DNA of 34,933 bases from assembly GCA_022565795.1 (NCBI GenBank), contig JAIUMA010000033.1:1-34933 (forward strand), written 5' to 3'. A program made the position numbers and the translations under genes. Source of the DNA: Balneolia bacterium. Its GTDB lineage: Bacteria > Bacteroidota > Rhodothermia > Balneolales > Cyclonatronaceae. The notes below the pieces were generated by a model. It was not told where the DNA came from, ran no database searches, and saw only the letters and a list, made by a program, of their open reading frames with translations. The first letter of the stretch is position 1. Every line of letters begins with the position of its first letter. This document shows positions 10,821 through 23,263 of the stretch, piece after piece.

Positions 10821-12032
10821 TCAAACAGGTCTTGATGGTCTCTGTAATTTCTGATACAATACCTGAGCAACGCCAAGAATAAACACAACACCCAGCATGC
10901 CCATAATCTGCTGCCAGGGCCAGAAGAGGTAAATTCCAGACATAGCGCCGAGTGGTATCCAGAAGAGGATGACTGTAGTGCCAAGTACGCTTATTAGCAG
11001 CAGCGTGCTTACGATCGCGGATGTTTTTTTCGAACTCCGGAGCCCATCACAAATAAACCATAGCAGTAAGGGCGTTACCAAACCGAGCAGCACCATATGC
11101 AGAAAACCAACCTTCAGCAGGTGATTTTGGGTGAGGTAGATTAAATCGGGGAAATAGCTCAAGGGCTGCACCACGGCTTTGATACCGAGTAGCACAATGG
11201 CAGCGGCCGGTATGAGCTTCACGCTTCCGATCGACTCCGTCACCGTGCGGCTCAGCACCGGCAAAAGCATCAGGATACCGATTCCGTGGAGCAGGTTAAA
11301 TACAAATCCGATGCGTATCAGTCGCTCGCTTATACCCAAAGGATAGAGCATAGAGAGCAATGCCGGCAGCAGCGTGATAAACATCAGGTTGAGGGCGAAC
11401 TGCTCTCTCCTGCCCGACCGGACCGCGACTTCCGGCCGGCTGAACCAGATGGCGAGCATCATAAATATAATCCAGCCGTTGAGCAGCAGAAACAGGTAGC
11501 TGCCCAGCCAGAACATCGCCATGGTTCCGGTCATGCCGCCGGTGAAAGCCAGCGCAAATGGTCCGAATCCTGAAAGCACGTGCCACAGCCAGGCCGCTCC
11601 GGCGAAATCACGGGAGATATCGGATCGTCGTTTCTCCGGCCGCAGCAAAAACAGAACCGCCAGCCAGAGCGTTAGAAACAGATGCATGCTGGAAAAGAGG
11701 ATTGACCAGAACGCGTAACCCTGCATTGCAAACGACACCAGCATCCCCAGGTTCGATAGCTGCAGACCAACCGACATGGGCACCAGCACCCGGCCGGCCG
11801 TTTCGACCCGGATAAAGAGCTTAAGCGTGTAGCCTGCCATCACCAGATAGACCCAGCCAAGAAGCGCCGCATGCGTGTGTGCATGAATCAGGTTCGGAAT
11901 CTGAAACCACGTTTGCCACGGGCTGTGCCACTCAAAACGAATCCACGTGCCGATAGCTACTGCAATCAGAAGCCAGACGAGCGCCGGCAGAAAGTACCAG
12001 TGCCGGATTTTGTTATTAAGACTCTTATTCAT
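10821..12032 (-). CDS. Heme-copper-oxidase-like / NnrS-like polytopic membrane protein
   Basis: A 403-residue inner-membrane protein with about 11-12 hydrophobic helices. Near the N-terminus, IPNLIHAHTHAALLGWVYLVMAGYTLKLF resembles the heme-ligand helix of cbb3 oxidase or NorB subunit I and also NnrS proteins. Further His residues sit in helices (LWHVLSGFG, LLHGIGILML, NHLLKVGFLHMVLLG), but I cannot see a full set of six oxidase ligands in the canonical spacing. A role in heme, copper or NO handling next to nos genes is inference. I chose the ATG at 12032, not 12044, because it overlaps the end of the small upstream gene by 8 bases (coupled translation). True catalytic oxidase activity is doubtful. 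Confidence 0.7.
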   Translation of the reverse strand: MNKSLNNKIRHWYFLPALVWLLIAVAIGTWIRFEWHSPWQTWFQIPNLIHAHTHAALLGWVYLVMAGYTLKLFIRVETAGRVLVPMSVGLQLSNLGMLVSFAMQGYAFWSILFSSMHLFLTLWLAVLFLLRPEKRRSDISRDFAGAAWLWHVLSGFGPFALAFTGGMTGTMAMFWLGSYLFLLLNGWIIFMMLAIWFSRPEVAVRSGRREQFALNLMFITLLPALLSMLYPLGISERLIRIGFVFNLLHGIGILMLLPVLSRTVTESIGSVKLIPAAAIVLLGIKAVVQPLSYFPDLIYLTQNHLLKVGFLHMVLLGLVTPLLLWFICDGLRSSKKTSAIVSTLLLISVLGTTVILFWIPLGAMSGIYLFWPWQQIMGMLGVVFILGVAQVLYQKLQRPSRPV

Positions 12033-12138
12033 GTTTGTGTCCACGTTTTTTCACTCTTTTCAAAAGGGGAATGATGATGAACAGGCAGCCCGAAAGAAGA
12101 AGCGCGCCAAATACGAGCAGACGAGACGGTGTTGGCAT
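12025..12138 (-). CDS. 37-residue single-helix membrane peptide in the nos operon
   Basis: An overlooked small frame reads MPTPSRLLVFGALLLSGC, then LFIIIPLLKRVKKRGHKHE. It has one transmembrane helix of about 20 residues followed by a strongly basic, His-containing cytoplasmic tail (positive-inside rule). It begins 19 bases after the stop of the DUF2249 gene and its last 8 bases overlap the start of the oxidase-like gene, an arrangement typical of a real, translationally coupled gene. The layout recalls small CcoQ-like or CcoS-like oxidase accessory peptides, but I see no specific match. No clear Shine-Dalgarno is present. Confidence 0.6.
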   Translation of the reverse strand: MPTPSRLLVFGALLLSGCLFIIIPLLKRVKKRGHKHE

Positions 12139-12157: not shown

Positions 12158-12466
12158 TTAATTGGGTTTCTCTTTGCCTTTCCCGTGGCGACAGCTGCAG
12201 CCCGACATCTCCTCAGCGCTTCGCTGATCTTCAGCAGGTCTGGTAATGCGCGTGATTTCAATCAGGAAGGTACCGTCAGGTCGGGCCGTCTTATCCCAGG
12301 AAAACTGACCCGGGCGCTCAAACAGAAACTGGAAATAGAGCGGCTTGGGGTCATGGTTGATTTTGAGCACAACGGCTTCGTGCACATCAGCCTTATCGAA
12401 CGTTTCGAAAATGAGGCGATGTCGGTCGGCCTGTGGCACGCTTTCAATTTCAATTTCGTGGTTCAT
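12158..12466 (-). CDS. DUF2249 domain protein
   Basis: A 102-residue soluble protein. The pattern VPQADRHRLIFETFDKADVHEAVVLKINHDPKPLYFQFLFERPGQFSWD is the DUF2249 signature (ERH..IF..F, then 'NDHDPKPLYYQF', then G.F.W). DUF2249 proteins often accompany NO- and denitrification-related genes and hemerythrin-like proteins, but have no proven reaction. The tail SGCSCRHGKG adds a Cys-x-Cys that could bind a metal. The frame continues upstream to 12505, but the ATG at 12466 gives the normal family start. It follows nosY by about 54 bases. Confidence 0.82.
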   Translation of the reverse strand: MNHEIEIESVPQADRHRLIFETFDKADVHEAVVLKINHDPKPLYFQFLFERPGQFSWDKTARPDGTFLIEITRITRPAEDQRSAEEMSGCSCRHGKGKEKPN

Positions 12467-12520
12467 AGTAGTGTAGTTGGATTTCAGTATTAGGGTCGGA
12501 TTCATGGGATTTTGCTTTAT

Positions 12521-13312
12521 CTAAAAGTCTTTGCTTACAAAGCGTCTTGCGCCCCAGGCGAGCGGAAGGCTGATCCAGAGCATCAATACACCCGCAATGG
12601 TGAGCAGACCTCCGGTGCTGCCGAGGAAACGCTGGAAAAGCGCTCCGGTGAAGCCCATTAACGTGGAGGCTTCAAACTCGATGAGCAGGGCAATTCGGGC
12701 CAGATCAAGCGGATTCAGCATCGACATCACAAGCACCGGCTGCTGAAGCGGGTAATCGGAAAACATGTAGATAACCACTAGGATGAGGCCATCATAAATC
12801 ACCGCAAAAAAGAGCCACATTACCACCGCCAGCCCGAGCCCCTTAATCTTGTCTTCGGTGAGCAGGGCTATCATAAATGCCAGTGCCGAGAAGATGGTAG
12901 TAAGGATGATGGCGGTTCCGATGAGGTAGCCAAGGGCAGCGAGATGTGATATCAGCACGCCGTTCCAGATGAACGGGAGGGCGATTCCTGCGGCTACGGT
13001 TACCGAAAGCGGCAGCATCAGGCCCGCAAAGAGGGCGCTGAACATCTCGCCGCGCTTCACGGGCTGAGAGAGCATCAGCTCGGTGTATTCGCGCGAGTTG
13101 TAGACATACATAGTACCAAGCATGATGCTCACCAGCGGAATCACCAGCAGAACGACGTTCATCAGGCTCAGGATTACGCGGTCGCCGGAGCCGCCGAAGC
13201 GGAACAGAGCGTCGGTTACCAGAATGAAGAAAGCCAGATAGAAAATCACCCAGCGGCTGCGCATCACGTCGCGAAGCTGGTATTTTATGAGTTTGAGCGT
13301 GTTGGTTTTCAT
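12521..13312 (-). CDS. nosY: NosY, ABC transporter permease for nitrous oxide reductase maturation
   Basis: A 263-residue integral membrane protein with six predicted helices, the normal size for NosY. NosY forms the membrane channel of the NosDFY complex, which supplies the sulfur or copper species needed to build the CuZ centre of NosZ. The N-terminal helix (LIKYQLRDVMRSRWVIFYLAFFILVTDALFRFGG) and the VYNSREYTELMLSQPVKRGEMF coupling-helix region fit ABC-2-type permeases of the NosY group. Its ATG overlaps the TGA stop of nosF (ATGA), so the two should be translated together. Confidence 0.92.
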   Translation of the reverse strand: MKTNTLKLIKYQLRDVMRSRWVIFYLAFFILVTDALFRFGGSGDRVILSLMNVVLLVIPLVSIMLGTMYVYNSREYTELMLSQPVKRGEMFSALFAGLMLPLSVTVAAGIALPFIWNGVLISHLAALGYLIGTAIILTTIFSALAFMIALLTEDKIKGLGLAVVMWLFFAVIYDGLILVVIYMFSDYPLQQPVLVMSMLNPLDLARIALLIEFEASTLMGFTGALFQRFLGSTGGLLTIAGVLMLWISLPLAWGARRFVSKDF

Positions 13313-14019
13313 CAGGCGGCTCCTTTCATTTTTCGGGCGATGGCGCGCTCAAGCGTGCGCTCACCGGTGGTTTCAAGCAGTTCGGTTACGGTCATCTCGA
13401 AGTGAATGAGGCCGTCGAGTATATACACGACTTTATCGGCCAGCTCCTGAATCTCACTCATAATGTGTGAGGTGAGGATGATGGTTTTTCCATTGCTCTT
13501 TTCACGGGCAATCTTGTCCTTCAGACAGCTCGATGAAACGGGGTCGAGTCCTGCCGACGGCTCATCCAGAAACACTACCGGCGGACGAAACAGAAACGCC
13601 AGCACGGCGCTTACTTTTTGCCGGTTGCCGCCGGAAAGCGTCTTAAACTTCTTGCCTAATTCCGTCTTCAGGTTAAAGGCGTGAAAAAGCTCTTCATCGG
13701 TATCTTCGGGATTCCCGCGCACATCGCGCACCATGTCGATAATTTCCTGCACGGTGAGGTTATCCGGGTAGCGGGCGTTCTGCGGCATATAGCCGATTCC
13801 GCTTCGGTAGGAAGCGTCTCCGTTTATGCGTTTGCCGTTTATGGTTATGTGGCCCGAGTCTGGTTTCACCAGGCCGAGCATACTTTTGATGAGGGTGGTT
13901 TTCCCCGCCCCGTTCGGTCCGAGCACGGCCGTAACTTCATGCGGACTGATGCTGAGATCCAGCCCGCGCAGTACGTCGAGCTTGCCGAAGGATTTGCTAA
14001 TATGTTCTATCTGAATCAT
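13312..14019 (-). CDS. nosF: NosF, ATPase subunit of the NosDFY transporter
   Basis: A 235-residue cytoplasmic ATP-binding cassette protein. Visible motifs in order: Walker A GPNGAGKTT near residues 35-43, Q-loop YMPQNARYPDNLTV near 78, signature LSGGNRQKV near 128, Walker B VVFLDEPSAGLDP near 148, and the switch His in LTSHIMSE near 181. It drives the NosDFY complex that delivers material for NosZ copper-site assembly. Both ends overlap neighbours by ATGA (nosD upstream, nosY downstream), which shows a tightly coupled nosDFY unit and makes the specific assignment secure rather than a generic ABC ATPase. Confidence 0.93.
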   Translation of the reverse strand: MIQIEHISKSFGKLDVLRGLDLSISPHEVTAVLGPNGAGKTTLIKSMLGLVKPDSGHITINGKRINGDASYRSGIGYMPQNARYPDNLTVQEIIDMVRDVRGNPEDTDEELFHAFNLKTELGKKFKTLSGGNRQKVSAVLAFLFRPPVVFLDEPSAGLDPVSSSCLKDKIAREKSNGKTIILTSHIMSEIQELADKVVYILDGLIHFEMTVTELLETTGERTLERAIARKMKGAA

Positions 14020-15263
14020 GGTAAAGGAGATTTCATGAGTGGATACTCGTCGACCAGGGTTTCCGGGGTGAGGGCCGGCATTACGCGCTCGGCCAGATCG
14101 AGTACATCAATAAAGAGGCTGCGGTGCAGAATAAGCGAAATCGGGTTTCTCTCTACAATGATGGAGTAGAGCCTCACCGGACGGTGCGGAACGTCGCCGA
14201 TGCCATCACCCTCCAGATCATACCCATCGTATCTGCTCCAGTAGTTTCGCTCGAAGGTGTTGTAGTGCTGCCGGCTGTTGGTCGCCACATCAAAGGTGTT
14301 GTCGATAAAGGCGTTATCGGTAAACACATTCCGGGTGCTGTTGGCCCAGATTTTCACGGCCCATCCGTTGCGCTCAAAAAGATTCTTTTCGATCTGCACG
14401 CCGTTTGACCCTTCCGAGTAAATCCCGATGGTATTGTTGAGAAAACGGTTATTCGAAATCAGGCTGTTGTCGATATCCTTGAGCAGAATACCGTATGAAG
14501 CGGGCCCGACATTATCGGCAAATATGTTGCCCGACATGTCTACTTCCTGCGAGTACATCACCGCCACGCCGGCGTTGTTTCTGCGGAACTCGTTTCGCGA
14601 ATATTCGGAGTCGCGCGAAAACATGTAGTGCAGACCGTAGCGGCGGTTGTCGGTGGCTATGTTGTCGGTAATGCGCACCTCTTTGGCAAATTCAAGGTAA
14701 ATTCCGTCCCGGTGGTGGTGAATCTGATTTTCTCTTACGGTGATACGCTCGGTGTCGAACAGGTGAATACCGTTGCCCGAGTTCGACTCCCGGTCGCCTC
14801 CGCCGCTGATTCTATTTCTCTCCACCAGACTGTCTTTCGCACGCGACAAGTACACGCTGAACATGCTGTCTTCAAATACGTTGTCCCGAATGATGACACC
14901 AGATGCGCTTTCAACCCTCACCGCCGATAAATCCCGAACGTGGCTCAGTCCGGTGTTGCGAATTGTGAGCCCTTCAACCTGCACGGAGTCTGCTTTAATG
15001 ACGATGATGTGCGCGCCTCCTTTCATGCCGTCGATAACAGCTCCGTCCTCTCCCCGAAGGATGATGCGCGCCGTTTCTATGGTGATGCCGCTTTCCTCGT
15101 AAACACCGGCCGGGATGATAATCACATCGCCGGGCTCAGACTGATCAATAGCCAGCTGAATGCTGCTTTCGACACGAATCTCACGATCGGATGCCAGCAG
15201 GCTTACGCTCAGCACCAGAAGCAGCGAAAGCAGAAGAAGGATGCGTTTTTTGAGGTTTTTCAT
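14016..15263 (-). CDS. nosD: NosD, periplasmic beta-helix protein for CuZ assembly
   Basis: A 415-residue exported protein. After a signal peptide (KNLKKRILLLLSLLLVLSVSLLAS), it carries about 12 right-handed parallel beta-helix rungs with repeating N.I......GI / N.F..N patterns (VEGLTIRNTG, VIIRDNVFED, SLVERNRISGG and so on), the NosD/CASH fold. The C-terminal NYWSRYDGYDLEGDGIGDVPHRP is a NosD hallmark. It acts in the periplasm with NosF and NosY in maturation of NosZ. I chose ATG 15263 over the upstream frame opening at 15320 because GAGG lies eight bases before it and it restores the signal peptide. Its stop overlaps the nosF start. Confidence 0.94.
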   Translation of the reverse strand: MKNLKKRILLLLSLLLVLSVSLLASDREIRVESSIQLAIDQSEPGDVIIIPAGVYEESGITIETARIILRGEDGAVIDGMKGGAHIIVIKADSVQVEGLTIRNTGLSHVRDLSAVRVESASGVIIRDNVFEDSMFSVYLSRAKDSLVERNRISGGGDRESNSGNGIHLFDTERITVRENQIHHHRDGIYLEFAKEVRITDNIATDNRRYGLHYMFSRDSEYSRNEFRRNNAGVAVMYSQEVDMSGNIFADNVGPASYGILLKDIDNSLISNNRFLNNTIGIYSEGSNGVQIEKNLFERNGWAVKIWANSTRNVFTDNAFIDNTFDVATNSRQHYNTFERNYWSRYDGYDLEGDGIGDVPHRPVRLYSIIVERNPISLILHRSLFIDVLDLAERVMPALTPETLVDEYPLMKSPLP

Positions 15264-15273
15264 GGTTTCAACC

Positions 15274-15762
15274 TCAGTTTGCGGCTGGAATTGTTTCGCG
15301 ACCGTCGAGCCAGGCTTCATTCACCAGCTGCATTACGCCAAGCCATGCCTTGATTTCTCCGCCGTAGCTGTTTTGATTCGCTTCGGCATGGCGGCGATTT
15401 TCATAAGCCGAAAGGTTCAGACCCATCGGGCTGCGAAGCTGATCGCTGTACAGATAGTGCGCTTCGTGCGCATTCACCCAGGTATCCGGACTTTCAAAGT
15501 CAGGAACCCAGCGGGAATGGATCCGGTCCTGCTCGAGTCCGCCGGTCAGTTCATAGGCAGCCAGACACTCAACCGAGTCAAAAAACCAGGTCTTGCCGGT
15601 TGTGCTCACCATTTGGGATCCAAAGGGTTTATCGCTGATAATCATTCTGCAGTGGGCGCATTCATCCTGGCCAATCATAATATCTTTGGGGCCGGGCTCG
15701 CAGGCCATCAGCGTGGTTAAGGCAAAAGCCAGCGTAAGAATCAGATTAACACGTGTTTTCAT
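15274..15762 (-). CDS. nosL: NosL, copper chaperone lipoprotein
   Basis: A 162-residue lipoprotein. The leader ends in the lipobox TLMAC (Cys21), placing it on the outer face of a membrane. NosL delivers Cu(I) to apo-NosZ. The metal motif DECAHCRMII (Cys35, Cys38, Met40) is intact, followed by the family segments GKTWFFDSVECLAAYE and WVNAHEAHYLYSD. The Met at 15762 was preferred over GTG 15774 because it gives a clean K/R-rich n-region. It is followed 10 bases later by nosD. A second NosL-like gene that lacks this motif lies directly upstream. Confidence 0.93.
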   Translation of the reverse strand: MKTRVNLILTLAFALTTLMACEPGPKDIMIGQDECAHCRMIISDKPFGSQMVSTTGKTWFFDSVECLAAYELTGGLEQDRIHSRWVPDFESPDTWVNAHEAHYLYSDQLRSPMGLNLSAYENRRHAEANQNSYGGEIKAWLGVMQLVNEAWLDGRETIPAAN

Positions 15763-15803
15763 AGCTTTTCTCACTTTTAAGTCGTACTAATTGCTGCGGA
15801 TTT

Positions 15804-16310
15804 TCAGGCCTCTTCGAAGAGTGCAATCATCTCATCCCAGCTTAAGTAGGCGCCGGGATAGGCTTCGTAGACGCGGTTTTTCATATGTTCGTTGGTTTTA
15901 TCGAGAGCTGAAAGATGATGCCCTCCCGGACTCGGTCGCAGTCTGCTGTGCAGGTACACCGCGTCGTGGATTCCAATGAAGCGCTTGCCGTCTATAAAGT
16001 CCACCACATAGAGCTGCAGGCTTTCCGAGGAGCGTTCACCGGCTTTCAACCAGTACACCAGGTCTTCCACGCTTCGAAAGTGCCAGGTATCGGATCCGTT
16101 AACCGCTCTGGCGCCGTAGCGCGCATTTCTAATGAGCTCCCCGCTCCAGTCGCAGTTCAGCTCGTTATACGGCATCTGGTCGTTTACAGCAGCGCCGCCA
16201 TCCGGGCTTAGGTCGCGTGGCGACTCCGACTGCCCGGCTGTGCATGCCAGCAGCAGGAAAGCTGCTGCGGAAATTATGATTGCTATGGTCAGGTTGCGTT
16301 TCATGGACAT
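15804..16310 (-). CDS. NosL-like lipoprotein lacking the copper motif
   Basis: A 168-residue lipoprotein (lipobox LLLAC, Cys23) that matches NosL in size, position and fold elements: GSDTWHFRSVEDLVYWLKAG aligns with the NosL 'GKTWFFDSVECLAAYEL' strand, and VVDFIDGKRFIGIHDAVYLHS with 'WVPDFESPDTWVNAHEAHYLYS'. The metal-binding loop is altered: NosL has CAHCRM, here CDWSGE, so the second Cys and the Met are replaced and only Cys53 remains. It may have a structural or partner role in CuZ assembly rather than copper delivery, or bind metal through other residues. It lies 14 bases after the membrane protein and 41 bases before nosL. Confidence 0.75.
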   Translation of the reverse strand: MSMKRNLTIAIIISAAAFLLLACTAGQSESPRDLSPDGGAAVNDQMPYNELNCDWSGELIRNARYGARAVNGSDTWHFRSVEDLVYWLKAGERSSESLQLYVVDFIDGKRFIGIHDAVYLHSRLRPSPGGHHLSALDKTNEHMKNRVYEAYPGAYLSWDEMIALFEEA

Positions 16311-16324
16311 TCTGTCAAAAGGCT

Positions 16325-16909
16325 TCAGTTTTGGGGACGGGCGGCTGATTTGTTCAGCCAGGCCGAGGCTGTCGCAAATCCAAAGGAGAGCGCAAGAAAT
16401 GCGGATCCCCAGTACGGGAAGGATGAAGCCCGTATGTTGAGCAGCTGCTTGGTTCCGATTAGTGGCGGCTGGTAGCTCATGCCGGGCACCTTAATCGGGG
16501 CGCGCGGATCGAGATTATGCCCGTAGTCGTAGCCCCACCACCAGTAGTCGGCAATGCCGGCCAGCGATAGAACTATGAACAGCACGACCCAGCTTATCAG
16601 AAGCTTTTGGTTGCCGGTGAGACCTACGATTAGCGCGAAGGCAATCATCGCTTTTACAATCCACGGGATGATGCGCAGCTCCGGAATTTCTTCTTTGTGA
16701 ATCTCTTTCATCCCGATATAGTGATTCAGCGTGTTGATGCTCTGCAGGTCGTGGCGATTATGCCCCTGAATATCATTGATGGAAATGTACATTCCGATTC
16801 CTTCGGGATATTGCGGGGCAGTCATGCTGATGCTCCAGAAAGGTATGTACCAAAGCGGAATCAGAATTAAGCCTGCCAGTATGATGAGGAGTCGCGCCCG
16901 GATTGACAT
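16325..16909 (-). CDS. Four-helix membrane protein of the nos cluster
   Basis: A 194-residue inner-membrane protein with hydrophobic segments near residues 8-24, 86-104, 106-124 and 166-184. Between helices 1 and 2 lies a periplasmic-looking loop with QGHNRHDLQSINTLNHYIGMKEI. The NHYIGM stretch and the HNRHD segment are rich in potential metal or heme ligands, and another Trp-rich loop (DYWWWGYDYGHNLDP) follows helix 3. I recognise the NHYIGM-type protein as a regular neighbour of clade II nosZ in Bacteroidota, without a demonstrated role. Accessory function in copper handling or electron flow is inference from location. Confidence 0.75.
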   Translation of the reverse strand: MSIRARLLIILAGLILIPLWYIPFWSISMTAPQYPEGIGMYISINDIQGHNRHDLQSINTLNHYIGMKEIHKEEIPELRIIPWIVKAMIAFALIVGLTGNQKLLISWVVLFIVLSLAGIADYWWWGYDYGHNLDPRAPIKVPGMSYQPPLIGTKQLLNIRASSFPYWGSAFLALSFGFATASAWLNKSAARPQN

Positions 16910-17030: not shown

Positions 17031-19004
17031 CTACAGGTCGCCTGTTCTCCAGGTGAGCTCCACATCGGAATCAGCTGCGGATACGCGCACATATCCCTGC
17101 ATTTCCTGGTGTAGGGCCGAGCAGAATGCCGTGCAGTAGAACGGGTAGATACCGGTTCGGGTAGGCGTCCACTTCAGAGTTTTGGTCTGCCCCGGCGCGA
17201 GAAGCACCTCTGCAGTATTCATTCCCTTGATGGCAAATCCGTGCACCACATCCCATTCCTGCTCGAGGTTAGTGAGGTGGAAGTAAACGGTATCACCAAG
17301 CTTAATCCCCTCGATATTATCCGGGCGGAAGTGGCTTCTGATGTTCGCCATATAGACTCGAACCACATCACCCTCGCGCTCTACACGGGCATCGGCCACG
17401 CGTTTGATGGCGTAGGGATTGTTGTTATCAGAGAGTTCATAGATGCGGCGTGCGTTCGGCATAATCTTGTCGCGGCTGATGGCCTGCGCATAGTGCGGCT
17501 CACCAATGGTCGGGAAGTCCAACAGCAGCTGCATACGATCCCCGCTGATATCATAGAGCTGGGCCGGGTGATTCTGCTTTGGTCCGGTTGGCAGGTAACG
17601 GTCTTTGGCCGTCTTAGTAAGACCAACCATGTACTTTCCGTACGGATTTACGGTGTCGCCGCCGGGGATCATCAGGTGACCAATAGAGTAGTAGGCGTCG
17701 ATACGGTCTACCACTTCGAAGGTTTCGAGCGACCACTTCACGATTTCGGAAGAAATGTAGACCGATGTATAGGCGTAGCCGTTGCCGTCGAACTCGGTAT
17801 GAAGCGGGCCAAGACCCGGATTTTCGACTTCGCCCACGATAGTGGCATCATAGTCGAGCACCGGAATGCCGTCGACTTCGTCGATAAAGCGCTCGTTTTC
17901 GATAGCATCAATCATGCGGCTGAAGCTGTGCACCGGAATAACGGTGGCCAGCTTTCCGCCGGCCACAAGGTATTCGCCGGTTGGATCTACGTCAACGCCG
18001 TGTGGTGACTTCGGTGTAGGCATGAAATAGAGAATGCCCGGCGCGTCTTTAGGATCGAGAAGCAGCACCTGATCCTTGATTTGCGAAACAGCCATTCCCT
18101 GACTCTTGTCGTAGTAATTGTGATAGTACTCGGCATCAATCATGGTAGCACGGCCATCACGAACGTATTCAGCAGCTTTTCTCCAGTTCAGCGCGGCTAC
18201 ATAATCTTTATCGTAGGCAGAAGCATTGATTTCCAGTAATGTGTGAGCTTCTTCGGTGTTGTAGGTGGTGAAGAAAATCCAGTCGGCCGATGGACCTTTA
18301 CCCGGACGAGCCAGATCGTAGTTGTACGGAGGTACGATGATCTGGAAATCCAGGCTCATTTCGCCGGTGTTCTCATCAATTTTAATAAGGCTGAATGCAC
18401 CGTTGAAGTTTTCTGAGTAGGAGTCGATTGGAACATCCAGATCGGTTTCGTAAGGAATCGAGAAGCGGGTTGCACCAACGATGTACTCGGTATTGGTGGT
18501 AACGAATGACGAAGCGTGGTTTCCGCCGGTGTTAGGCAGTTCGAGCACTTCAACCGTTTCGAAAACCTCCAGATCGATACGGGCGATACGCGGGGTGTTG
18601 TTCGCATTGATGAAAATCCAGCGCCCATCGGCTACGCCCTCTGTTTGGGAGAGGTGTGGATGGTGAGAATCATCCCACGGAATAAAGCCGTATGATGTCT
18701 CAAGCAGCGGCTTCGACTCTTCGTAATATCCGTAGCCGGTTTCCGGATCCTGACTAAATACCGGGATGTTTTTGAACATCCGGCCGGACGGAAGCCCCCA
18801 GACGCTCAGCTGACCGCTGTAGCCGCCCGAGAAGAACGCATAGAACTCATCGTATTCCCCCGGAGCCACGTAGGTCTTTTGAGCAGCATCGCCGCGGTCG
18901 AGCAAGTTACCCTGTCCCGACGGGCAGCCCGTAAGAAGCAGAGCAGCTCCAACCGCTACGGCCGTCACAACTACAATGTTTTTTAGTGTTAATAGTTTTG
19001 TCAT
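17031..19004 (-). CDS. nosZ: NosZ, clade II nitrous oxide reductase
   Basis: A 657-residue enzyme reducing N2O to N2, the last step of denitrification. The N-terminal beta-propeller holds CuZ ligands in DDSHHPHLS (near 113-121), GNHASSF, SPHGVDVDPTGEYLVAGGKL, GPLHTEFDGNGYAYTS, IGHLMI and EPHYAQAI. The C-terminal cupredoxin domain holds the CuA motif CTAFCSALHQEM (Cys624, Cys628, His632, Met635) and an upstream VVHGFA. The leader is Sec-type without twin arginines, as in clade II, and ends LLLTGC, a lipobox, so the enzyme may be membrane-anchored. Genes downstream (NosL, NosDFY) are its assembly factors and the upstream cytochrome c is the likely electron donor. Confidence 0.96.
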   Translation of the reverse strand: MTKLLTLKNIVVVTAVAVGAALLLTGCPSGQGNLLDRGDAAQKTYVAPGEYDEFYAFFSGGYSGQLSVWGLPSGRMFKNIPVFSQDPETGYGYYEESKPLLETSYGFIPWDDSHHPHLSQTEGVADGRWIFINANNTPRIARIDLEVFETVEVLELPNTGGNHASSFVTTNTEYIVGATRFSIPYETDLDVPIDSYSENFNGAFSLIKIDENTGEMSLDFQIIVPPYNYDLARPGKGPSADWIFFTTYNTEEAHTLLEINASAYDKDYVAALNWRKAAEYVRDGRATMIDAEYYHNYYDKSQGMAVSQIKDQVLLLDPKDAPGILYFMPTPKSPHGVDVDPTGEYLVAGGKLATVIPVHSFSRMIDAIENERFIDEVDGIPVLDYDATIVGEVENPGLGPLHTEFDGNGYAYTSVYISSEIVKWSLETFEVVDRIDAYYSIGHLMIPGGDTVNPYGKYMVGLTKTAKDRYLPTGPKQNHPAQLYDISGDRMQLLLDFPTIGEPHYAQAISRDKIMPNARRIYELSDNNNPYAIKRVADARVEREGDVVRVYMANIRSHFRPDNIEGIKLGDTVYFHLTNLEQEWDVVHGFAIKGMNTAEVLLAPGQTKTLKWTPTRTGIYPFYCTAFCSALHQEMQGYVRVSAADSDVELTWRTGDL

Positions 19005-19090: not shown

Positions 19091-19564
19091 CTACTGGCCT
19101 TTATCGACCTTCCTGAAATACTCGACTATTTCGCGTGCCTCTTCCTCACTCACGTTCTGAAAGGGCATCACCATCATATATTCCTGCATCATTTTTTGTC
19201 CTTCAGGATGCTTTCTGGCCATGTCGCCCGGATTCAGAATCATATTCATGAGGAACTCGGGAGAGCGTCTTTCGGTAAGCCCCACAATCGGAGGACCAAC
19301 CAGGCGGTTTTCCATCTGATGGCAGGCCGCACATTTGGATTCGAAAATATCCTGCCCCCTTTGGGCCATGTCGATATCGAAGTCGGCCATTGTCATTGGA
19401 GAAGTTATCGGGCCAATGCCGTGCTCAAGCTCGAAATCGCTCAGTCCGGCATTTTGTGAAGCCGAAGAAGCAGCATTACCTGATGAAGAGCCCTCTTCAC
19501 CATTTCCACAAGCGAACAGGAAAGCGGAAAACAGAAATGAAAGTAGAATTACAGCGAGTCTCAT
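19091..19564 (-). CDS. Mono-heme cytochrome c lipoprotein, likely electron donor to NosZ
   Basis: A 157-residue lipoprotein (lipobox LFAC, Cys19) with a Ser/Ala-rich linker to about residue 40 and a class I cytochrome c domain. The heme motif CAACH is at residues 78-82; the axial Met is probably in YMMVMPFQNVSEEEAREIVEYF, the typical C-terminal helix arrangement. It should sit on the outer side of the membrane and pass electrons from the quinol pool or a bc1/ACIII complex to the CuA site of NosZ. It is the first structural gene of the nos cluster and lies 86 bases upstream of nosZ. Confidence 0.9.
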   Translation of the reverse strand: MRLAVILLSFLFSAFLFACGNGEEGSSSGNAASSASQNAGLSDFELEHGIGPITSPMTMADFDIDMAQRGQDIFESKCAACHQMENRLVGPPIVGLTERRSPEFLMNMILNPGDMARKHPEGQKMMQEYMMVMPFQNVSEEEAREIVEYFRKVDKGQ

Positions 19565-20450: not shown

Positions 20451-20774
20451 ATGGAAGTCAAAGAGTTCTTAATCACCGATCCATCCATTCAGCGGTCAGC
20501 TGAAATTGCGAAGGCGCTCGGTCATCCTGCGCGTATTGCCATTCTAAAAATACTGGCGCAGCGCACCAACTGCTTCTGCGGCGACATTACTGAAATTCTG
20601 CCCCTGGCTCAGTCTACAGTTTCACAGCATCTTAAAGCGCTGAAGAGCGCCGGACTGATCAGCGGCACCGTTGAAGGCGTTAAAACCTGCTACTGCCTCA
20701 ATCCTGACGGCGTACGTGAGCTTCAGACCGTTCTCTCAGAGCTATCATCCGAACTTTTCAAAACCTGCTGCTAA
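20451..20774 (+). CDS. arsR: ArsR-family arsenite-responsive repressor
   Basis: A 107-residue winged-helix repressor. ALGHPARIAILKILAQ (helices 1-2), AQSTVSQHLKALKSAGLISGTVEGVKTCYCLNP (recognition helix and wing) are classic ArsR/SmtB. The metal site is probably Cys41 and Cys43 in TNCFCGDI, matching the ELCVCDL position at the start of the DNA-binding helix, possibly with Cys106-Cys107 at the extreme C-terminus. Binding of As(III) should release it from the palindromes before its own gene and before arsD. It is the first gene of an arsR-arsD-arsA unit. Confidence 0.92.
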   Translation: MEVKEFLITDPSIQRSAEIAKALGHPARIAILKILAQRTNCFCGDITEILPLAQSTVSQHLKALKSAGLISGTVEGVKTCYCLNPDGVRELQTVLSELSSELFKTCC

Positions 20775-20916
20775 GCTGTCGTGCGGAATCGCTGTTAATC
20801 CGGTTCCAATAATTGAATCCCTCCATCTCCTGATTACTGGCATTTCGAATTGCCCATTTGCCTGCCTAACGCTTCAAGTCATCAAAAAGAAAAATCAGAA
20901 TTGGAATCCCATTTTA

Positions 20917-20938
20917 TTAATCGTATTTTTACGATGAA
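20917..20938 (+). promoter_or_regulatory. Second ArsR-type operator upstream of arsD
   Basis: Arms TTAATCGT (20917-20924) and ACGATGAA (20931-20938) surround a 6-base T-rich centre; it matches the arsR operator except for one arm base. It ends 24 bases before the arsD start. Two operators in 500 bases suggest that arsR and arsD have separate, co-repressed promoters. Confidence 0.75.
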
Positions 20939-20962
20939 TCAAAAATCACAAATCTTAATACA

Positions 20963-21538
20963 ATGAAAGCTACATTAGAAATTTACGACCCGGCCATGTG
21001 CTGCAGCACCGGCGTTTGCGGAACCGACCTTGACGATACGCTTGCCGATTTTGCCAACGACCTGAAATGGCTCAAGAGTCAGGGCATTGAAATAAAACGA
21101 TTTAACCTTGGTCAGGAACCTGAAGCTTTTAAAAGCAACCCACACGTTTTAAGCAGACTTCAGAAAGAAGGCTCGGCCATTCTTCCCGTTATCCTTGTTA
21201 ATAGCGAAGTGGCTTCCGAAGGCGGGTATCCGGTTCGAAGTCAGCTTTGTGAGTGGCTTGGTATAGGAGCCGACAGCGGGCAGACAGCAGGGTCAGGTGA
21301 GGCGCAGGCCGCTTTGCTTCAGAACCTCAGGGAGTCGGTTATGAGCGGAAACAGTGCCGCTATGGAAGCCTTCTTCAAATCCGGCAAAGAAGCCGGAGCA
21401 GGCGTACAGGATATGGTTGAAGCTATGCAGGCCGGTCTTAACGAGCGTCAGAACATCACGCAGCAGGTAGTTACGAAAGCGAACGAACTGCTTGGCGTTC
21501 AGCAGAATGGATGCACTCCTGGCGGAGGATGCTGCTAA
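20963..21538 (+). CDS. arsD: ArsD arsenite metallochaperone with C-terminal extension
   Basis: A 191-residue protein. Residues 1-115 are ArsD: LEIYDPAMCCSTGVCG carries Cys13, Cys14 and Cys19, the triad that binds As(III), followed by the FNLGQEPEAFKSNPHVL segment and ILPVILVNSEVASEGGYP. ArsD passes arsenite to the ArsA ATPase. Typical ArsD is about 110-125 residues; here a helical Gln/Ala-rich extension of about 70 residues ends GCTPGGGCC, adding further paired cysteines that might be a second metal site. It starts 188 bases after arsR behind its own operator and is followed 52 bases later by arsA. Confidence 0.92.
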   Translation: MKATLEIYDPAMCCSTGVCGTDLDDTLADFANDLKWLKSQGIEIKRFNLGQEPEAFKSNPHVLSRLQKEGSAILPVILVNSEVASEGGYPVRSQLCEWLGIGADSGQTAGSGEAQAALLQNLRESVMSGNSAAMEAFFKSGKEAGAGVQDMVEAMQAGLNERQNITQQVVTKANELLGVQQNGCTPGGGCC

Positions 21539-21590
21539 CAGTAGCTTCGCAACAGAGCAGACCAGAATTTACATTTTAAAGAGACAAACC

Positions 21591-23263
21591 ATGAACATTT
21601 CAGACGCAACACCATTCATCTTTTTCACCGGTAAAGGCGGGGTTGGCAAAACATCTCTGGCAAGCGCGACCGCGATCCGGCTGGCCGAAAGCGGCATGTG
21701 GTAAATATCGACCCGGAAAAATCGGCTGAAGCGTACAGACAACGGGTGATTTCACCCCTTCAGGATATCTTGCCTGAACACGAGATTGAGCGCATCCGTG
21801 AAGAGCTCTCCGGCGGTTGTACTACCGAGATTGCGGCTTTCGACGAATTCGCACGCTATATCGCAGGTGATGGTGATCAGACCCCATATGATGTCATCAT
21901 TTTTGATACGGCGCCAACCGGGCACACGCTCCGGCTTCTGGAGCTGCCCGCAGCCTGGAGTGAGTTCATTGACGACAACCCGGACGGAGCATCATGCCTT
22001 GGACCATCATCCGCACTAAAAACCAATCAGGAGCGATATGAGAAAGTAGTCAATCGTCTCAAAGACGCTAATACTACTACTATATACCTGGTTACCCGTC
22101 CCGAAAAAACGGCCCTGCGTGAGGCCGACCGTTCCGGAAATGAGCTGCTAGAGATGGGACTTGCCAATCAGGAACTACTTATAAATGGTATGTTTGAACC
22201 GATTGATGAATCTGATCCGTTTGCAATAAAGCTGGCAGAAAAGATGCAGCAGACGCTTGAAGAGATGCCGGAACGCCTCAAAAAGCTAAAGCATCACACT
22301 TTTCCGCTCCGTCCGTGGAATCTGCTCGGAATTGAGAAGCTGAGAAAAGTCTTTGAGCCGCTTGATGCCGCTGAAGCCGAGCAGGAGAGTAAAAAAATTG
22401 CATACGACGATACCACGGTCGAATTGCCTGATTTGAATCAGCTTGTTGCTGATCTGTCGAAGGACAAAGACCACGGCTTGGTAATGACCATGGGCAAAGG
22501 CGGCGTTGGCAAGACGGTGATTGCCGCATCCATTGCGCTCAAGCTGGCCCAAAACGGATTTCCGGTTCATTTAACCACAACGGATCCCGCGGCCCATCTC
22601 ACAGATTATCTGGATGGAATTTCACTGCCCGACAACCTTGAAGTGAACCGGATTGATCCCCGTGCCGAAAAGCAGGCGTATATCGAAAAAGTACTGAGAC
22701 AAAAAGGGAAGGATAAAACCGAAGATGAGCTTCGACTCCTTAAGGAAGACCTGGAGTCTCCGTGTACCGAGGAAGTTGCCGTATTTCATGCATTTTCCAA
22801 GGCCATCCAACAGGCCAAACGAAAGTTCGTAGTGGTGGACACGGCCCCAACCGGGCACACGCTGCTTCTGCTGGATACCACCGGAAGCTATCATCGGGAA
22901 GTGATGCGAAACAGTAATCTGGACACCGGCAAACTGAAAACGCCGATGATCTATCTACAGGATTCTGATTTCACTAAGCTTCTGCTGGTCACTCTTCCGG
23001 AGACCACCCCAGTCCTGGAAGCATCCAAGCTGCAGGATGATCTTCGGCGGTCAGGAATTGAGCCTTTTGCCTGGATCGCAAATCAAAGCATGGCCGCTGT
23101 GAAGATGACCGACCCGGTGCTTAAACTCCGGGCCGCAGCTGAGAAGCCGCTGCTTAAACGCGTTCAAAATGAAGAAGCACGCAGACTCTACAGCATTCCG
23201 TTTATGGTAGAAAACCGCCTGCCCGGAATCGAGGAAAGCGAATTAGCTGAAGCGGGCCTTTGA
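21591..23263 (+). pseudogene. arsA: arsA, arsenite-transporting ATPase, with internal deletion and frameshift
   Basis: ArsA is the cytoplasmic ATPase that powers arsenite efflux through ArsB or Acr3. The frame opens at 21591 with the A1 P-loop GKGGVGKTS but stops at 21702-21704, after LAESGMW. The family sequence resumes in another frame from about 21701 with NIDPEKSAEAYRQRV. Compared with the plasmid R773 ArsA, about 38 residues are lost, including the switch I segment STDPASN. Everything after is intact: GCTTEIAAFDEF, DTAPTGH, GASCLGP, the second P-loop GKGGVGKTV, TTTDPAAH, SPCTEEVAVF and the second DTAPTGH, so all three metal-binding Cys positions remain. A GTG at 21698 could start the second part alone. 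No pump gene lies nearby. A sequencing or assembly error cannot be excluded. Confidence 0.85.

Follow-up and report, generated by a model that had tools for sequence, protein, structure and literature searches.

The window, by which we mean the whole 34,933-nucleotide stretch of DNA that was analysed, carries on its minus strand a clade II nos cluster in which the genes for a cytochrome c, NosZ, a NosB-type membrane protein, a second NosL-family protein (here called NosL2), NosL, NosD, NosF, NosY and a DUF2249 protein follow one another. The features used in this study are given below in the order of the cluster, with the evidence for each.

19091..19564, minus strand: cytochrome c upstream of nosZ (Pfam Cytochrom_C)
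17031..19004, minus strand: NosZ, clade II (Sec-dependent) nitrous-oxide reductase (TIGR04246, 897 bits)
17100..17138, minus strand: CuA loop of NosZ, YCTAFCSALHQEM, with Ala626 (column counts and pattern scans)
16325..16909, minus strand: membrane protein of the NosB type, encoded immediately upstream of NosL2; relatives hold the same place
15804..16310, minus strand: NosL2, a NosL paralogue and predicted lipoprotein of 168 amino acids (open reading frame; neighbouring NosL at BLASTP E 1e-11; 40 relatives)
16137..16154, minus strand: CDWSGE, residues 53-58 of NosL2, in register with CxxCxM of NosL; the reverse complement reads C-D-W-S-G-E
15921..15932, minus strand: SPGG, residues 127-130 of NosL2; the NosL counterpart is SPMG
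15274..15774, minus strand: canonical NosL, with SPMG (Pfam NosL, 46.4 bits, E 6.5e-12)
15643-15660, minus strand: CAHCRM of NosL; the reverse complement reads C-A-H-C-R-M
14016..15320, minus strand: NosD (TIGR04247, 424 bits)
13312..14019, minus strand: NosF, ABC ATPase (Pfam ABC_tran; gene order)
12521..13312, minus strand: NosY, ABC permease (Pfam ABC2_membrane_2; gene order)

The NosB-type frame contains LNHYIGM and YGHN, NosB motifs described in PMC9697520. NosD probably starts at its second Met, at 15263, and with this start the genes for NosB, NosL2, NosL and NosD are consecutive with gaps of about 10-30 bases. Downstream of nosY lie the genes for the DUF2249 protein (12158-12505) and for a membrane protein of 407 amino acids (10821-12044), relatives of which also follow nosY in loci L063, L064, L072 and L081. 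Beside the nos cluster, at 20451-23263, are open reading frames that we take to resemble ArsR, ArsD and ArsA; in the ArsA-like frame the first P-loop is seemingly absent, perhaps owing to a frameshift or a late start.

Homology to NosL and loss of the copper ligands

NosL2 shares 26% identity with the NosL of the window (BLASTP, E 1e-11). Profile-profile alignment with hhalign (39 NosL2 against 40 NosL sequences) gave a probability of 99.9% and an E value of 9.9e-34 with both motifs in register, and this agrees with an earlier note on this DNA, which had set CAHCRM of NosL against CDWSGE and had claimed that the surrounding fold segments and the lipobox were kept. The lipobox Cys is present in all NosL2 rows (39/39) and all NosL rows (40/40), making both families predicted lipoproteins, and the lipid Cys is separated from the first Cys of the motif by 24-61 residues in NosL2 (median 27, 39 rows) as against 14-15 in NosL (40 rows). 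The Pfam NosL model (PF05573) scores NosL2 at 12.3 bits (E 0.22), below its curated cut-off of 24 bits, so a scan at that cut-off misses it.

Structure models were made as single chains from the window and L032 sequences. The NosL model is the better one (pLDDT 78, pTM 0.72), and in VIA it matched solved NosL chains with Z values of 15.2-16.5. For NosL2 the model is weak (pLDDT 65, pTM 0.58); its best five Foldseek rows were all NosL chains, at E values of 0.005-0.07 and none below 0.001, and its VIA Z values against NosL chains were 5.9-6.3 over 108-118 residues, in the range under 8 where VIA advises caution. By its sequence, NosL2 is predicted to be an exported, lipidated protein of the NosL fold.

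Two more distant likenesses were seen. MerB, the organomercurial lyase, resembles both models in fold (highest VIA Z, 4.7 with NosL2 and 7.8 with NosL), but identity is at most 12% among the matches listed, and size and context differ. In the NosL model, the N-terminal domain is similar to the zinc-finger domain of eL24 (Foldseek probability 0.93, rmsd 1.5, 41 columns), which we take to be TRASH-like; eL24 was also the best match of the NosL2 profile among PDB sequences, at a non-significant E of 0.32. In this type of finger, CxxC and a second Cys pair bind zinc, whereas NosL2 has neither and keeps only C53 invariant. The likeness to eL24 suggests that the copper loop of NosL may have a zinc-finger-like ancestry.

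Residues were counted in 40 NosL2 and 79 NosL sequences, the latter comprising the 40 partners of NosL2 and 39 proteins from single-NosL clusters (21, 9 and 9 loci, a part of all hits from the available genomes); second loci of one genome and identical rows were omitted. According to PMC6530538, the Cu(I) motif conserved in NosL is C-x-M, one further Met is invariant, and a first Cys, as in CxxCxM, typifies the NosL of clade II; from our alignments, we read the further Met as that of SPM. The CxM Met is found in 0/40 NosL2 and 79/79 NosL sequences, the CxM Cys (the second of the motif) in 2/40 and 79/79, the SPM Met in 0/40 and 78/79, and the SxEC Cys in 21/40 and 79/79. The loss of the copper motif reported in the earlier note is accordingly not a chance event of a single genome. 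With the CxM Cys and Met and the SPM Met lost, NosL2 is without the expected sulfur ligands, and its sequence indicates that it cannot hold Cu(I) in the manner of NosL. Two NosL2 proteins (L058 and L059) still have CDWCHK, which looks like an intermediate state.

The first Cys of the motif, C53 in NosL2, is present in 40/40 NosL2 and 76/79 NosL sequences. Three canonical NosL proteins that keep CxM are without it (L007, 2308-2817; L021, 1456-1986; L087, 4029-4682), so the first Cys is inessential to NosL in these lineages. The invariance of C53 in NosL2 was absent from the earlier note, as was the altered NosZ linked to NosL2 that is described below. Further invariant residues of NosL2 are R64, G66, E82, P126-S127-P128, G153, W158 and E160, of which E82, S127 and P128 are common to NosL too. 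NosL2 thus resembles NosL, the Cu(I) chaperone for CuZ, in its homology over the whole mature protein, its lipobox and its place in the nos cluster, and differs from it in lacking CxM and the SPM Met, in its score under the Pfam cut-off, in its longer tether and in having invariants of its own.

The lone Cys invites the explanation that NosL2 relays metal or sulfur. C53 would then either bind Cu(I) transiently together with NosL or NosD, across the interface between the two proteins, or, more speculatively, carry persulfide to supply CuZ with its sulfides. That this Cys has been kept in every sequence after the loss of its partners suggests that it is used, and C83, on the C-terminal side, is also retained in 21/39 NosL2 rows. 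However, NosL2 offers no other conserved side chain of the thiol, imidazole or thioether kind: leaving aside the lipobox Cys and C53, none of its Cys, His and Met residues occurs in more than 28 of the 39 rows (the maximum being M143). A relay site must consequently be completed by another protein. We regard a relay through C53 as rather unlikely.

Distribution and the linked nos lineage

A search of the order (128 genomes, nine NosL2 queries) gave matches in 68 genomes, and a search of the class (244 genomes, 39 query sequences) gave NosL-family matches in 109. Two such matches were found in 40 of the 109. Of these 40, 39 are among the 72 Balneolales genomes that had a match, and the remaining one, G519, belongs to another order. 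Broken down by family code, the pair occurs in 7/7 genomes of f1, 11/11 of f56, 1/1 of f3, 0/1 of f4 and 20/52 of f2, three of the f2 genomes without it being cut at contig ends. The other 33 of the 72 Balneolales genomes have one NosL-family gene, 3 of them with the locus cut at a contig end. In a sample of the phylum (394 genomes), 116 had a match at 1e-6 and nine had two, all of them Balneolales. Beyond the phylum, NosL2 was sought by one single-sequence contig scan and a plasmid search; the scan returned one relative, on JAIULZ010000132.1 of Balneolales bacterium isolate PBR18_bin03A, of the same genus, and the plasmids gave no tblastn match at E 0.01. The nos clusters of Gemmatirosa, Tunicatimonas and Thermomicrobium have one CxxCxM NosL each and no second, and that of Deinococcus has no NosL in the stretch read.

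The arrangement is stable. Each of the 39 distinct tandem loci of Balneolales has NosL2 next to NosL; NosB lies directly upstream of NosL2 in 37 (in the remaining two, the contig start falls inside NosL2 or immediately ahead of it), and NosD is seen directly downstream of NosL in 35; the 40th pair, in G519, has the same gene order. A rearranged NosB/NosL pair is likewise found in the NosB-NosL fusions already known in Bacteroidota, as reported in PMC9697520, but these carry a normal NosL, whereas NosL2 is a second NosL without ligands. We observed NosB and NosL as one open frame in L011, L019, L025-L027, L081, L086, L088 and L090, all Bacteroidota.

A tree was computed from NosB and the C-terminal part of NosZ with a simple model and a short search, omitting L071 and L072, which have no NosB. 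One fully supported branch separates 38 tandem from 39 single-NosL clusters, and the single-NosL clusters of Balneolales group with those of other Bacteroidota. G519 joins G465, a Balneolales tandem cluster (99), and this grouping suggests that the whole nos cluster may have been transferred. On this tree, NosL2 is inherited with one nos-cluster lineage of Bacteroidota. Two broader distributions were considered and rejected: NosL2 does not characterise clade II as a whole (9/116 in the 394-genome sample, and no second NosL in the outside clusters read), nor a trait of all Balneolales (33/72 have a single gene, and the 11 of these that were fetched fall on the opposite side of the tree).

The NosZ of this lineage is altered as well. 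Residue 626, between the two CuA cysteines, is Ala in 36/36 tandem and Asp in 36/36 single-NosL clusters. Sequence encoding YCTAFC, then S, T or the product of another WSN codon, then ALHQEM was sought as a DNA pattern and was found in 44 of the 244 genomes of the class, including 39 of the 40 with NosL2; in the remaining one (G466) the contig starts within NosL2, and in all five CTAFC genomes beyond the NosL2 set the contig ends before the NosL2 position. In the phylum sample the pattern occurs in 9/394 genomes, identical to the nine with the pair. The pairing of NosL2 with CTAFC is thus without exception where contigs allow the check. In the four clusters read from other organisms, the loop is CTDFC twice, and CTEFC or CTNFC in the remaining ones. 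The partner NosL is also marked, with P91 in 37/40 tandem and 0/39 single-NosL sequences.

Other differences accompany these. Many NosZ positions (27 rows listed) are fixed differently in tandem and single clusters, some of them outside CuA. NosZ of the NosL2 lineage has Val for Pro before a His on the CuA side (587) and is without Met at position 603, both fixed or nearly fixed (36 versus 36). Residue 233, His in single and Arg in tandem clusters, was considered as a CuZ ligand and rejected, since no His stands at this position in the clade I alignment. NosD, NosB and NosY also differ between the two groups, with NosD cut short in many loci. Because all the linked traits lie on one branch, they show co-inheritance and not cause.

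It could nevertheless be that the two proteins serve different sites, NosL2 the CuA of the lineage NosZ with its Ala626 loop and NosL the CuZ. The pairing with CTAFC, without exception where contigs allow the check, would fit such an arrangement. PMC11573801 reports that in clade I the residue at the 626 position gives its backbone carbonyl to CuA and touches a potassium site with its Trp side chain, and in PMC6530538 NosL was shown to be specific for CuZ. On the other hand, Ala can still give a backbone carbonyl, and the pairing comes from one lineage with many fixed NosZ differences, some of them away from CuA, which could make the link incidental. We consider a CuA-specific NosL2 quite unlikely.

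Selective constraint and the proposed role

Among 13 close pairs of NosL2 tried, 12 were computable, and 11 of these gave dN/dS values of 0.05-0.28; the twelfth gave 0.70 at a dS of only 0.056. NosL2 is, judging by these ratios, under purifying selection. The NosL2 sequences form one clade (98) in a tree of NosL and NosL2. This tree is unrooted and long-branched, and on it neither a clade of NosL2 with all Balneolales NosL (p 0.535) nor a clade of NosL2 with its partner NosL (p 0.342) is rejected.

NosL2 might still be redundant, or a modulator such as a competitor restricting the docking of NosL, and in either case matter little for the loading of NosZ, given that related clusters manage without it and that it is more divergent in sequence than NosL; its constraint and its fixed place across four families speak against this, and we judge such a copy very unlikely. 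That NosL2 is merely a decaying duplicate of NosL, as the lost metal motif and the single high ratio might suggest, is extremely improbable, and a pseudogene was rejected, since the gene is intact in 39 Balneolales genomes and one of another order, the remaining ratios are low and NosL2 has invariant residues of its own.

The explanation that we tentatively prefer, with confidence somewhat short of even, is that NosL2 is a functional, long-kept NosL paralogue that would act as a copper-ligand-less partner in NosZ maturation rather than as a second copper carrier. It draws together the homology and fold, the loss of the copper ligands, the fixed place, the purifying selection, the single clade and the co-inheritance with the NosB and NosZ lineage, with the Ala of the CuA loop and with P91 of the partner NosL. 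NosL2 would dock, through the surface it shares with NosL, on NosL itself (as a hetero-oligomer), on the NosD of NosDFY or on apo-NosZ, and once docked it would position or gate the transfer while NosL carries the copper. Contacts between NosL molecules do exist, since the NosL of P. denitrificans was observed as a mixture of monomer and dimer (PMC6530538). The longer lipid tether and the linked NosZ changes would fit a role facing the machinery or the client, and not copper storage.

Several points weigh against the partner role. Co-inheritance on one branch may be hitchhiking, a pure scaffold leaves the invariant C53 unexplained, related clusters including those of single-NosL Balneolales do without NosL2, and confidence in the structure model of NosL2 is low (pLDDT 65). 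The split of work that the earlier note proposed for the tandem genes is thus plausible within this lineage, where order and adjacency are conserved, selection is purifying and the conserved Cu(I)-site Cys and Met are lost except for the first Cys, and relatives do share the paralogue (40 genomes, including 39 of the 72 Balneolales with a match); as a general property of clade II nos operons it does not stand, the pair being confined to 9 of 116 phylum-sample genomes with a match, all of one nos-cluster lineage.

A bolder proposal, which we hold to be rather doubtful, is that Balneolales possess a distinct clade II subtype in which a CTAFC NosZ goes with an obligate module of NosL as carrier and NosL2, with its lone Cys, for docking or site-specific assembly. 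If true, this would be a two-subunit copper-delivery device, and a search of open-access literature (titles and abstract openings) found no account of one for any nos system. The same search found no description of such a NosL paralogue.

The known biological sink of N2O depends on nitrous-oxide reductase, and the way in which the copper sites of this enzyme are loaded is understood only in part. A naturally occurring NosL, long kept although devoid of copper ligands, would separate docking from copper carrying, and NosL2 may therefore serve as a genetic probe of the NosL step. Together with the altered CuA-loop NosZ, NosL2 defines a searchable subtype of nos cluster, for which predictions on the loading of CuA and CuZ can be tested.
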